From contig NZ_CP032101.1 of the NCBI RefSeq assembly GCF_003544855.1, positions 1,116,001 through 1,180,000 of the forward strand: a stretch of DNA of 64,000 bases. Reading direction: 5' to 3'. The stretch is from Malaciobacter marinus. Lineage in GTDB: Bacteria; Campylobacterota; Campylobacteria; Campylobacterales; Arcobacteraceae. The notes below the pieces were generated by a model that saw nothing but the letters and a program-made list of their open reading frames with translations, was not told the DNA's origin and did no database searches. Of the stretch, positions 18,823-37,876 are shown piece by piece; position 1 is the first letter of the stretch, and each line of letters begins with the position of its first letter. A program made the position numbers and the translations under genes.

Positions 18823-19363
18823 AAATTTTGCAAAGGTCTTTTTACTTGTAGACCTTTGCATTATAATTTACTCTTTGTCTTTTGAAAACTTTTATTGGTT
18901 ACTTAATTCACAAGTTGCTTTTTTTGCTTCTATAGTTATTACTGTTTCTTCTTTTTTATCATATAGAAAGAATATACAAAATAGATTAAAAAATTTTGAT
19001 AGTAAAATGGAAACTAAAATTGAAGATAGAGATAAAGTGGATGAAATTGATGATCCCTTTGATTTATATTCAGAAGATATAGAACCTATAAAAGAAGAAG
19101 ATTTGACACCAGAAAAAATCAAAGAGATTATAAAAGAAGAGAAAAGTAAAGTAAAAAGAAACTCTTTTAAAAATACAATATTTTCAACAGGTGGTTTTGT
19201 TTCAATTTATAGACTACTTGGTTATGGTATTTTGATTTTTGGATTTTTCTCTTTAAATAATAATAATATATTTTTACCAATACCTTTTTTAATTGGTTTA
19301 GGAATAGTTCCTATTGCTGTATTATTAACAAAACTAATTATAAAATCAGAGGTAAGTCAATAG
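18806..19363 (+). CDS. Hypothetical membrane protein
   Basis: About 185 aa with membrane helices near residues 10-50 and 135-180 and an acidic middle (EDIEPIKEEDLTPEKIKEI). Start uncertain: ATG at 18806, 18809 or 18815 all overlap the preceding gene. A strong hairpin (18829-18860) falls just inside the coding region. Its 3' end overlaps the opposing gene by 26 bases. Family not recognised. Confidence 0.6.
   Translation: MMKMIKNFAKVFLLVDLCIIIYSLSFENFYWLLNSQVAFFASIVITVSSFLSYRKNIQNRLKNFDSKMETKIEDRDKVDEIDDPFDLYSEDIEPIKEEDLTPEKIKEIIKEEKSKVKRNSFKNTIFSTGGFVSIYRLLGYGILIFGFFSLNNNNIFLPIPFLIGLGIVPIAVLLTKLIIKSEVSQ
18829..18860 (+). terminator. Hairpin after the AtpZ-like gene, inside the next ORF
   Basis: TGCAAAGGTCT-(10)-AGACCTTTGCA, a perfect 11-bp stem starting six bases after the AtpZ-like stop. 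Its place suggests an attenuator or partial terminator; there is no T run. Confidence 0.4.
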
Positions 19364-33361: not shown

Positions 33362-34837
<1,476 letters not shown>

Positions 34838-34915: not shown

Positions 34916-35080
34916 ACTAAATCTAAAATCTAATATTTCTAATATCACTTTTTGATTTCATTGATTTTTCTAAAACTTTTATAATTTATTTTAAAAACCC
35001 AAGACGAATTTACAATATCTTAACAATTAAATCATTTAAAAAATTATATTAAATATATAAGTTAGGATAAAATTATTATA

Positions 35081-35208
35081 TATTGTAATATTTTATTAAA
35101 ATCGTCGTATTTACGGAATTTTGTTTAACTCAATATCATACATTAAAAATGTATTACTATTAAGTAGTTTTATGGGTAATTAATATATAATATATTATTA
35201 ATGAATGG
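35081..35208 (+). repeat. Leader repeat copy A (attI/Pc-like)
   Basis: Related along its length to copy B at 36241-36381; the best-kept core runs from about 35132 (CATTAAAAATGTA through TTATGGGTAATTAATATATA). Homology stops at GTTAT at the point where cassette 1 begins. It contains TATAAT at 35186-35191, placing transcription start a few bases before the cassette. An integron attI with its cassette promoter would look like this; no integrase gene is beside it. Confidence 0.65.
35186..35191 (+). promoter_or_regulatory. Candidate cassette promoter -10 (copy A)
   Basis: TATAAT in the leader repeat, about 17 bases before the cassette junction; the same box occurs at 36359-36364 in copy B. The -35 side is AT-rich without a clear box. 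Confidence 0.5.
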
Positions 35209-35688
35209 TTATACGAATATAATATGAACGAAAAATATCGAAAAATAATAAACGAACGTCAGTTAGTTTCTGTGATGAACAAAACTAAGTGGCGAGAATT
35301 GTGTCATGATTTTGAAAAGCTCCACTCTCTATACATTAGGGTAAAATACAAACTGATTTCATCTGAAGAAATTTTAGGGTTCAGTGCAGTTTGGTGGAAT
35401 GAAATCTACGAAGAAAGTTCAGCTATCGAGTGGATAGATTTTAATCCAATAATTTCTAAGTATCGTGGACGTTTAGTCGCGCCAAAAGAAACTGATATGA
35501 GTTATGAAATTCTGGCAATTTTAAAGAAGCATGGAATCAAATATTCTATGGAAGGGTCTTACTTTCGAGTTTGGGGATATTTGAACCAACATACAAATCC
35601 AGTATTCGTATAACAAAGTATTAAAGAGCTGGGCATTTGAATGCTAGTTTGAGTACAGTGATTTGTGTTGCCTACTCTTGATGCGGCG
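35209..35688 (+). mobile_element. Integron gene cassette 1
   Basis: Runs from the G|TTATAC junction to the core site of attC1. The first bases, TTATAC, are the exact complement of the R'' box GTATAAC at 35608, as expected when both come from one circular cassette. It carries one ORF in sense orientation ending inside the attC, the normal cassette plan. Confidence 0.75.
35224..35613 (+). CDS. DUF6678-like cassette protein
   Basis: A 129-aa soluble protein resembling the DUF6678 group: MNKTKWRELCHDFEKL near the start, then IEWIDFNPIISKYRGRLVAP, then an HGIKYSMEGSYFRVWGY ending. Function unknown. Its ATG lies only 15 bases after the cassette junction with no Shine-Dalgarno, so translation would be leaderless or inefficient. 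Codon use is less AT-biased than the surrounding genes, a sign of transfer. Confidence 0.6.
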   Translation: MNEKYRKIINERQLVSVMNKTKWRELCHDFEKLHSLYIRVKYKLISSEEILGFSAVWWNEIYEESSAIEWIDFNPIISKYRGRLVAPKETDMSYEILAILKKHGIKYSMEGSYFRVWGYLNQHTNPVFV

Positions 35689-35694
35689 TTATAA
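35608..35694 (+). repeat. attC1 recombination site
   Basis: R'' box GTATAAC at 35608-35614 and R' box GTTATAA at 35688-35694. Between them the arms pair: GTATTAAAGAG with CTCTTGATGC (one extrahelical base), and TGGGCA with TGCCTA-like bases further in. An 87-bp imperfect hairpin with unpaired bases is the hallmark of a chromosomal-integron attC. The stop codon of the cassette ORF lies in the R'' box. Confidence 0.75.
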
Positions 35695-35729
35695 ACACAA
35701 AGGAACTTCTTGGACTTAACAAAAAAATA
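35689..35729 (+). pseudogene. Truncated cassette remnant
   Basis: Starts like the intact cassettes: TTATAAACACAAAGGA with a Shine-Dalgarno and TTG, then stops after six codons where the GGGTCAG repeat begins. The rest of the cassette and its attC are missing. Confidence 0.5.
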
Positions 35730-35746
35730 GGGTCAGTTGTCACCTT
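35730..35746 (+). repeat. GGGTCAG repeat, copy A
   Basis: GGGTCAGTTGTCACCTT. The same 17-mer with one change occurs at 37770-37786. Both directly follow cassette sequence that is cut short. Confidence 0.7.
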
Positions 35747-36240
35747 AAATTTTGACGAAATTTATTTAACTAAATGGGCAGAGAAAATATTAAATGGTAC
35801 TAAAAAATGCAAAGGTCAATATCGTACCTTCCCGCATTTGAGAAGCCAAGTGTTTATTTATTGTTTCGGAGAAGTTTTGTAACTGTTTGAGCATAATAAA
35901 TATGCTGGGAGCATATTTTTATGTAAGTTTTCTCAAAGAGAGTGCAAGCACAAGACAAAACAGAAATAATAAATAATAAGCGAGGGAACCTTCGGCTTCG
36001 AAACCTGTGGGTTGTTTTTATTTTACTTTTTTCAATAAAAAAGTGAATATTTAGAATTTATCTCTCATAATATCTAGTAATTTCTTTCCCATTTTTAACT
36101 CCTGAAATACTTAGCATTTTGTTAAACTATTACAATTTTTAACCAATATCAGAACATTTTGATAAGATATTAAACATATTGGTAATAATCTAACAAAAAT
36201 AATTATACCAAGTATAAAAAATAAGATAAAAAATATTACA
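35747..36240. other. Gene-free stretch between array halves
   Basis: About 490 bases without a supported gene. A short open frame (about 35747-35880, NGTKKCKGQYRTF in it) has no start codon and may be a gene fragment. Two terminator-like hairpins stand out: AAATATGCT-ggg-AGCATATTT at 35898-35918 with T's after it, and ACTTTTTT-caat-AAAAAAGT at 36025-36044. Confidence 0.5.
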
Positions 36241-36381
36241 TATTGTAATATATTATTTATTATTTTATTGATATCGCTATATTTATAGGACTTTATTTAA
36301 GTTAATATCATAACATTAAAAATGTAATCCTATTAAGTAATTTTATGGGTAATTAATATATAATGTATTACTAATAAATAG
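36241..36381 (+). repeat. Leader repeat copy B (attI/Pc-like)
   Basis: Second copy of the leader at 35081-35208, diverged but alignable, with TATAAT at 36359-36364. Homology again ends at GTTAT (36381-36385), where cassette 2 starts. Confidence 0.65.
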
Positions 36382-36903
36382 TTATGATTCAAAGGAAATT
36401 ATGTGAAACACTATGTAACCGGTTTTCTATTTACAAGAGATTCTAATCATGTTGTTTTAATAAAAAAGCTAAATCCGAAATGGCAACGAGGATTGTTTAA
36501 TGGCGTGGGTGGAAAAATAGAAGAAAATGAAAAGTCTTGCGATGCTATGTCCAGGGAATTTAAAGAGGAGACAGGAGTTGTTATAAACGCTGAAGAGTGG
36601 GTTCAATTTTCACATATTCATCGTCCCGGATTTTATCATTTGGACCTATATTATGCTCATTCTGACCTTGCTTTTGATGTCAGGACTATTGAAAAAGAAG
36701 AAGTTCATATAGTAAAAGTGAATAACTTACCAAAAAATATTATTCCGAACTTACAATGGCTAATTCCTTTAGCTTTAGATAAAGAAATGGATTTTTCAAA
36801 TCCTATTTTAATGCAGGAAATAGCTAATGAAAGAACTAAATCATAACAAATCAGTGGAGCTAATAAACTACCCTGCGGGCAATTTATTAGCTCACTTTAA
36901 ACG
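36382..36903 (+). mobile_element. Integron gene cassette 2
   Basis: From G|TTATGA (core box 36381-36387) to the attC2 core site. TTATGA matches the complement of its own R'' box TCATAAC at 36841, which supports the boundary. Confidence 0.75.
36403..36846 (+). CDS. NUDIX hydrolase (cassette-borne)
   Basis: A 147-aa hydrolase of nucleoside diphosphates linked to another moiety. The Nudix box is complete: GGKIEENEKSCDAMSREFKE then ETGV (Gx5Ex7REUxEExGU). The GTG start at 36403 is preceded by AAAGGAAA; the ATG two bases earlier is followed at once by a stop. Codon use (CGTCCCGGA and the like) differs from the host. NUDIX genes are common integron cargo. Confidence 0.85.
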   Translation: MKHYVTGFLFTRDSNHVVLIKKLNPKWQRGLFNGVGGKIEENEKSCDAMSREFKEETGVVINAEEWVQFSHIHRPGFYHLDLYYAHSDLAFDVRTIEKEEVHIVKVNNLPKNIIPNLQWLIPLALDKEMDFSNPILMQEIANERTKS

Positions 36904-36909
36904 TTATAT
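36841..36909 (+). repeat. attC2 recombination site
   Basis: R'' box TCATAAC (36841-36847) and R' box GTTATAT (36903-36909). Arms AGTGgAGCTAATAAA (36853-36867) and TTTATTAGCTCACT (36883-36896) pair perfectly except for one extrahelical G. The 69-bp length is typical. The clearest attC in the window. Confidence 0.85.
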
Positions 36910-37374
36910 GCACAAAGGAGTATAACTTGAATATCGAATATAAACTAAATCAAAATATTACATCATCAGAATTTATAGAGGTTTTAAAAAACTCAACTCT
37001 AGGCGAAAGAAGACCTATTGATGATTTGAAAACAATCAAAGGTATGATTGAAAATGCAGATATAATCGTAACGGCTACAATAGATGACAAAATAATTGGT
37101 GTTGCAAGAGCAATTACTGATTTTAATTATTGTTGTTACCTATCAGACTTGGCAGTAGATGAACAATACCAAAAGAATGGAATTGGTAAAAAACTCATTT
37201 CAAAAGTTCAAGAACAATTAAATGATAAATGTAAAATTATATTGCTCTCAGCACCTGATGCAACAGAGTATTATCCAAAAATTGGATTTACTCAACACAA
37301 TTCAACTTGGACACTTGGAAGACAAGATAAATTAAACTAAAATGTATATGACAAAATATTTCTCAACTCAAACG
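36904..37374 (+). mobile_element. Integron gene cassette 3
   Basis: From G|TTATAT to the core site at 37374. The expected R'' box is ATATAAC; the sequence has ATATGAC at 37346, one change. Confidence 0.65.
36927..37340 (+). CDS. GNAT-family N-acetyltransferase (cassette-borne)
   Basis: A 137-aa acetyl-CoA-dependent transferase. LSDLAVDEQYQKNGIGKKLI contains the Q/R-x-x-G-x-G/A cofactor motif; YYPKIGFTQH near the C-terminus is the usual last strand. The TTG start at 36927 follows AAAGGAG. The substrate could be a drug, polyamine or protein; resistance is possible but unproven. Confidence 0.85.
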   Translation: MNIEYKLNQNITSSEFIEVLKNSTLGERRPIDDLKTIKGMIENADIIVTATIDDKIIGVARAITDFNYCCYLSDLAVDEQYQKNGIGKKLISKVQEQLNDKCKIILLSAPDATEYYPKIGFTQHNSTWTLGRQDKLN

Positions 37375-37380
37375 TTATAT
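37346..37380 (+). repeat. attC3, unusually short site
   Basis: Bounded by ATATGAC (37346-37352) and GTTATAT (37374-37380). At 35 bp it is below the usual attC minimum and has no long inner stem, so it is either a deleted or a non-functional site. Confidence 0.5.
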
Positions 37381-37769
37381 TAAAAAGGTATTTTAGATTT
37401 TTAAAGGAAAGTTATAATATGAGAAAATTAAAACAAGAAATGTTAAATAAAATGGATGAGGAGTTATTATTAGAAGAATTGAAATACATTAATAATGTTA
37501 CATTGCATAATGATAAAACTACACTATCATTAATACTTGGATCAATAAGTATTAATATGTTAATTTACAGATTTTTCACAGGAACTTCAGAAATATTTAT
37601 TTGGTTTAAAACTAATATTGATTTAGTTACATTTATATCAGTTATATGTATTTTTTTAATAAATCTATTCTTAACAAAATATTTCAATACGTATAAAGAT
37701 GATATTATTAATAGATTAATTAAGAAGAAATATAAAGCAAACAATAAATATAACAAATCATTGAAATAG
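37375..37769 (+). mobile_element. Integron gene cassette 4 (3' truncated)
   Basis: Begins at G|TTATAT; its R'' box ATATAAC (37748-37754) is the exact complement of that start. After about 15 more bases the site is replaced by the GGGTCAG repeat, so the attC is cut and the cassette could not be excised. Confidence 0.6.
37419..37769 (+). CDS. Cassette-borne two-span membrane protein
   Basis: A 116-aa protein with a charged N-terminus and two membrane segments (about residues 27-50 and 63-85), then a Lys/Asn-rich tail. AAAGGAAAG precedes ATG. The last codons read through the attC R'' box, so the original C-terminus may have differed. Family unknown. Confidence 0.6.
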   Translation: MRKLKQEMLNKMDEELLLEELKYINNVTLHNDKTTLSLILGSISINMLIYRFFTGTSEIFIWFKTNIDLVTFISVICIFLINLFLTKYFNTYKDDIINRLIKKKYKANNKYNKSLK

Positions 37770-37786
37770 GGGTCAGTTGCCACCTT
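37770..37786 (+). repeat. GGGTCAG repeat, copy B
   Basis: GGGTCAGTTGCCACCTT, 16 of 17 identical to copy A, ending the second half of the array. Confidence 0.7.
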
Positions 37787-37876
37787 GAGTTACAAACTAA
37801 AAAACAAACAAGAGGTTTTCTATTTTTTTATTAATTTTTCACTACAATACGAAACTCAAAAATTCAAGGCTAAAAA

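Follow-up and report, generated by a model that had tools for sequence, protein, structure and literature searches.

Probable remains of an ancestral chromosomal integron of the Arcobacteraceae, in two integrase-less platforms, downstream of guaB in Malaciobacter marinus

Integron cassettes without an integrase are classed as clusters of attC sites lacking integron integrases (CALINs) when two or more attC sites lie no further than 4 kb apart and IntI is absent. A described case of an integron with a fixed chromosomal place is the sedentary chromosomal integron at ilvD of Xanthomonas, which, according to an excerpt of PMC12444791, is kept vertically beside a housekeeping gene, carries differing cassettes and has many inactivated or deleted intI genes. 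Loss of intI is common across bacteria and affects nearly one third of the intI genes found in a pseudogene survey (excerpt of PMC2426708). Campylobacterota are among the integron carriers listed in part of PMC8618304, and CALINs are tabulated for Sulfurovum and Sulfurimonas in part of PMC10295459. Here we describe a cassette array downstream of guaB in Malaciobacter marinus (Arcobacteraceae, Campylobacterota), located in a 64,000-nt stretch of its chromosome (assembly GCF_003544855.1, contig NZ_CP032101.1, positions 1,116,001 to 1,180,000), hereafter the window, and compare it with the guaB loci of relatives, which are referred to by genome (G) and locus (L) labels.

The array is very probably what is left of a chromosomal integron locus that is ancestral in the Arcobacteraceae, has guaB as its upstream anchor and now consists of two dead platforms in tandem. 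It had been described in an initial annotation of the sequence as an integrase-less, CALIN-like array. The absence of IntI stands, and the locus is more than a bare attC cluster, since it contains two decayed platforms with attI and intI remains; the two attI leaders, the intI stub and the damage to attC3 and attC4 had not been noticed. Like a CALIN, the locus has neighbouring attC sites, of which attC1 and attC2 score with covariance models, and no IntI; unlike a CALIN, it keeps two attI leaders and a piece of intI, making its origin by intI loss directly readable, and its four attC sites comprise one of Vibrio type, one of family type and two damaged ones. It resembles the Xanthomonas ilvD integron, as excerpted from PMC12444791, in its vertically kept place next to a housekeeping gene, its differing cassettes and the frequent inactivation or deletion of intI, and differs from it in phylum, in its anchor (guaB, or guaA in some relatives), in the small size of the arrays and in having two attI in one locus. 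It differs from the pseudogenes of the survey (PMC2426708, in the part cited) in that intI is almost fully deleted and thus invisible to an intI-homology survey. The anchor and the platform remains are the following:

33362..34807, plus strand: guaB (IMP dehydrogenase; Pfam IMPDH, 534 bits), left anchor of the integron locus
34941..35002, minus strand: relic of the guaB-intI spacer, platform 1
35003..35208, plus strand: attI leader 1 and cassette promoter region, crossover G at 35208
35785..36047 (limits approximate), no strand: dispersed repeat of about 260 bp, abutting the intI stub
36057..36092, minus strand: intI 2 remnant, start codon and codons 1-12 (MGKKLLDIMRDK), with a Shine-Dalgarno-like AGGAG upstream
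36229..36381, plus strand: attI leader 2 and cassette promoter region, crossover G at 36381

Cassettes 1 and 2 are each preceded by an AT-rich leader that ends in G|TTA. This leader appears to be the attI and promoter side of an Arcobacteraceae integron, because a divergent intI or its remains lie just upstream of it in relatives (G058, G061, G033, G036 and G087) and because the leaders share a GTT(A/G) end and a TATAAT. In an alignment of 26 leaders, counted by eye, 25 rows end in GTT(A/G), 24 of these in GTTA, before diverging into different genes, and TATAAT is kept in 22. Leader 1 is 77% identical to the G058 attI leader over 35038-35213, its stretch 35003-35037 being defined by the 26-leader alignment only, and leader 2 is 96% identical to the G058 leader. 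A genome search with the leader gave 24 matches at E ≤1 among the best 40 of 68 candidates, with the two leaders at 302 and 137 bits and the rest at 40 bits or less. Matches at E ≤1e-5 are present in at least 15 of the 104 family genomes (own genome included), a lower bound since eight candidates were scored per genome. A CATAAC...GTTATG pair inside leader 2, found by a search for exact R''/R' pairs, was treated as chance, leader 1 having CATACA at the aligned place.

Each platform would formerly have had an intI pointing from attI towards guaB. The complete 2.917 Mb genome contains no IntI over the TIGR02249 cut-off; its three Phage_integrase matches (one XerC/D-like, one Xer-like and one phage-type, at 98.5, 83.6 and 22.5 bits where the IntI cut-off is 265) all lie outside the window, in line with the earlier statement that the window holds no tyrosine integrase gene. 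In platform 2, the stub agrees with intact IntI at 12 of 12 residues, and its start lies 137 bp from leader 2, the same spacing as in G058. The DNA of stub and attI is 91.7% identical to G058 over 338 nt, beginning exactly at 36057, and 35789-36919 is 86.6% identical over 1154 nt to the guaB locus of G061, through the repeat, stub, attI, NUDIX gene and attC2. This intI was probably lost after codon 12, beside the dispersed repeat. The stub/repeat junction is found in four of the 104 genomes (the present one, G061, G069 and, twice, G057), and G061, G069 and G057 each have one copy 1.5 to 4.1 kb beyond guaB. In platform 1, the spacer relic matches G058 at 87% over 63 nt, across the guaB-intI spacer and into the last codons of intI, and leader homology begins within 36 bases of these remains, suggesting that a deletion reaching from the 3' end of intI 1 to the leader removed nearly the whole gene. 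At least 11 relatives have matches of more than 200 bp to the dispersed repeat, some of them in several copies; it often lies near guaB (L081, L084, L085, L130, L131 and L138), and a 27-base core is present even in distant family members.

The missing integrase could also be accounted for if an IntI elsewhere had dropped single cassettes near guaB, so that a platform never existed. CALINs away from the platform have been described in Xanthomonas (PMC12444791, in the part cited), and neither the vicinity nor the genome contains an intI, as this account would have it; it leaves unexplained the two attI leaders, a stub of intI whose orientation and 137-bp distance are as expected, and the intact intI genes that G085, G088 and G089 have at guaB. 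The leaders and the stub largely refute such off-target insertion, which we consider very unlikely. Because attI is kept together with remains of intI, loss of intI, and not off-target insertion, best explains the missing integrase.

The two leaders are 86% identical to each other, while leader 2 is 96% identical to that of G058, and they therefore seem to come from different lines. Two attI need not mean two integrons: in a single platform, a leader-cassette unit may have been duplicated, or imported by homologous exchange. The truncated stub junction lies downstream of guaB in G061, G057 and G069 with no second full leader found there, and the array of G081 also has one full and two partial leaders, both of which suit a single platform. 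It fits less well that leader 1 keeps the guaB-side spacer next to the former intI 3' end while leader 2 keeps the intI 5' end, and that the leaders belong to different lines. A single platform is thus possible and on balance unlikely; two platforms, one of them possibly imported, fit better, and the single-platform account shades into the ancestral-locus reading preferred here. The G081 array (L082; leaders at 9129-8992, 6333-6287 and 4607-4527) is a second case of attI copies within an array.

The cassettes and their sites are the following:

35209..35688, plus strand: cassette 1 (DUF6678 gene and attC1), Vibrio-type
35608..35694, plus strand: attC1, shortened Vibrio-type site
35689..35727, plus strand: start of an additional cassette, interrupted by GGGTCAGTTGTCACCTT sequence (direct sequence reading; repeat)
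36382..36903, plus strand: cassette 2 (NUDIX gene and attC2)
36841..36909, plus strand: attC2, intact family-type site
36904..37374, plus strand: cassette 3 (GNAT gene and attC3)
37346..37380, plus strand: attC3, internally deleted, one changed base in R''
37375..37769, plus strand: cassette 4 (two-transmembrane (two-TM)-like open reading frame (ORF)), its attC truncated after about 13 bases by GGGGTCAGTTGCCACCTT, R'' ending at 37754

The proposal of the initial annotation that four small genes lie in integron-type cassettes is borne out by the ORF calls and the junctions. Its labels hold for the DUF6678 ORF (35224-35613; Pfam, 130 bits), the NUDIX ORF (36403-36846) and the GNAT ORF (36927-37340); the fourth, a two-TM-like ORF of 116 aa (37419-37769), has no family over cut-off in a Pfam search. 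The start of each cassette had been reported to complement its own R'', with one change in cassette 3, and this too was found: the complementarity extends over 12, 9 and 8 exact bases in cassettes 1, 2 and 4, and over six of seven bases in cassette 3 (ATATGAC for ATATAAC, counted by eye). Since the R'' heptamers of cassettes 1, 2 and 4 occur just 6, 6 and 11 times on the plus strand of the 64 kb, a correctly placed match each time is not due to chance, as had been argued. Cassette 3 is 89.7% identical over 466 nt to a cassette in G081 that has an unmutated R'' and is located behind a different site, so the unit has evidently moved on its own.

The attC sites were scored with two covariance models. 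R1 is based on 15 attC sites, all taken from relatives and not from the window: a chain search, which also returned many poor links, gave 20 candidates that passed a filter, of which 15 were used (one trimmed) and five were excluded for length. MAFFT aligned the site arms badly, leaving the R1 structure weak. R2 was built from seven V. campbellii sites. attC2 scores 77.9 bits with R1 (E 2.4e-13 genome-wide) and attC1 scores 30.2 bits with R2 (E 5.1e-5 in 64 kb; next match 11.3 bits), so that the covariance check suggested in the initial annotation, carried out with models built here, leaves its assignment of these two sites in place. R1 gives no match to attC1. At E ≤1 genome-wide it finds nothing besides attC2 and attC3 among the best 150 of 2176 candidates, attC3 scoring 23.5 bits (E 0.013 in the window), and attC4 has no match with the covariance models. 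Both attC3 and attC4 are damaged. In plain folding, attC2 is better than its shuffles (z -4.5), so the earlier description of attC1 and attC2 as long imperfect hairpins stands for attC2 and not for attC1. R1 has 100 matches at E ≤0.5 in the loci of relatives, opposite strands and overlapping loci included. An Rfam search of the region revealed no attC-like family, its one snoRNA match being due to chance, and across the whole window it identified a tRNA only; no phage matched the array, and searches of plasmids with the NUDIX and GNAT genes gave matches only below 60% identity.

Several results weigh against the integron reading. The R1 training sites were picked by attC's own features, and the genome-wide E of attC3 with this model is 0.58, which is not significant. 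attC1, attC3 and attC4 fold no better than shuffles (z about 0). A generic promoter scan shows no excess of promoter-like sites (21 against 23.0 in shuffles). In platform 1, the L-G-F-stop on the minus strand at 35002-34991, which would be the end of intI 1 (three codons and the stop), was read by eye and is weak on its own. A tblastn search at E 0.01 finds no intI in the 5.5 kb after guaB. As a protein, the intI 2 stub reaches E 5e-5 against three intergenic stretches; over the whole window it is weak (E 0.008-0.025), and an unrelated place scored 0.005. The protein-level signal being weak, the case for an intI remnant rests on DNA comparison. A weak match to IntI residues 144-201 at 19034-19210 of the plus strand (E 0.005, 38% over 61 aa) is probably chance.

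The array could also be a chance set of small, horizontally acquired genes with coincidental GTTAT repeats, in a region that is AT-rich and in which three of four sites fold no better than shuffles. This is refuted by the genome-wide score of attC2, the Vibrio cassette matched from boundary to boundary and the attI homology in at least 15 of the 104 family genomes, and its probability is negligible.

Comparison with relatives places the ancestral locus in a wider context. guaB is present in 104/104 family genomes, and its locus was inspected in 17. An open intI is found there in G085, G088 and G089 and a broken one in G058; G079 retains a C-terminal piece, and G064 a 5' stub. Eleven of the 17 loci have no intI at E 0.01, among them the window and G061, where the stubs are visible at the DNA level alone. 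In G063, intI was deleted seemingly between two copies of a 13-bp stretch (judged by eye), and the junction is unlike that in the window; intI has therefore been lost more than once. The genes behind the leaders also differ, with GNAT in G058, DUF2806 in G064 and a Tsi6-like gene first in G081. Gene order at the guaB locus, which the annotation had proposed to compare among relatives, is thus not fixed, and different cassettes occupy the same place. G078 keeps the leader and has no cassette gene of at least 70 aa before the downstream genes and no R1 site, and in G036 the 670 bp between guaB and the downstream gene contain no array.

Across the family, an R1 site at E ≤0.001 is found in 51 of the 104 genomes and an intI over the TIGR02249 cut-off in 16, at least three of which have stops; 12 genomes have both, and 39 of the 51 with sites lack an intI over cut-off. 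These counts are rough, owing to incomplete assemblies among the genomes and to the narrowness of the model. The impression that integrons are uncommon in this phylum is not upheld by the 16 genomes with intI, or by the listings in the cited parts of PMC8618304 and PMC10295459. In L078, L086, L120 and L122, intI or its remains lie beside guaA and not guaB, giving two purine-synthesis anchors in one family. In G063 (L079, 9284-13700), three consecutive genes stand behind the attI leader, the first encoding a long coiled-coil ATPase-like protein (DUF3584 below cut-off). This set may resemble a Wadjet-type defence operon.

While the platforms were active, IntI would have inserted circular cassettes at the G|TT point of attI via recombination of the folded attC bottom strand. 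With both intI genes lost, the cassettes would now be frozen and inherited, and probably read from the two kept promoter regions. Continued mobility driven in trans by a Xer-type or phage recombinase of the genome is conceivable given its three tyrosine recombinases; these fit XerC/XerD-type models or no specific model and score 22-98 bits, far below the IntI cut-off of 265, and attC3 and attC4 are decayed, which makes this extremely unlikely. In the frozen locus favored here, renewed movement of cassettes would require the entry of a foreign IntI, and cassettes 3 and 4, whose sites have decayed further, would probably be locked even then.

Cassette 1 has a distinct relationship. Its DNA is 75% identical over 410 bp to a V. 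campbellii cassette, from the crossover G through R'' (AACAAA). The array around the V. campbellii cassette has seven Vibrio-type sites, and another site in it is 78% identical over 51 bp to the 3' portion of attC1. A search of plasmid records with DUF6678 gave a single match, at 68%, in a V. campbellii record of 2.06 Mb. Cassette 1 and attC1 are thus like the cassettes and Vibrio cholerae repeat (VCR)-type attC of Vibrio superintegrons, with the differences that attC1 is about 40 bases shorter than the VCR-type attC of V. campbellii (NZ_CP050465.1) and that a Campylobacterota platform houses the cassette. Across 397 genomes of the phylum, DUF6678 was found only in the present genome and as two weak partial matches, and a separate search of genome contigs found no relatives. 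That this cassette was transferred into the Campylobacterota platform is an inference; with a DNA identity of 75%, the transfer was not recent.

A repeat, GGGTCAGTTG(C/T)CACCTT, lies at 35730-35751 and 37770-37791, the two points at which cassettes are cut off. These are the only genome matches to the 19-base pattern at up to two mismatches. The repeat is perhaps the end of a lost element, and searches gave it no identity.

Published work already covers integrons and CALINs in Campylobacterota as well as the decay of intI. What is new in this locus is the anchoring at guaB, an attI present twice with two losses of intI, and a cross-phylum cassette: among the titles and abstract openings returned by literature searches, no Arcobacteraceae chromosomal integron is described, and the terms epsilon, campylobacter and arcobacter are absent from the part of PMC9024848 searched. 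The locus shows a stepwise passage from integron to integrase-less array, in which attI persists, intI shrinks to a stub or disappears, and the attC sites decay afterwards, and it records the entry of a Vibrio-type cassette into a Campylobacterota platform. Such loci are overlooked by surveys based on intI only, as the 39 of 51 genomes with family-type attC and no intI over cut-off illustrate. The occurrence of intact, broken and deleted intI at one anchored locus makes the tempo of loss, and what remains after it, measurable within a family. Speculatively, and with a low probability in our estimation, loss of intI with retention of attI and promoter may be a selected end state in the Arcobacteraceae, in which arrays become fixed, promoter-driven clusters and leaders are kept, imported or multiplied within them as promoters, the present locus having two full leaders and G081 one full and two partial ones. 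If so, the capture gene would have been lost repeatedly in this family while the promoter was retained.

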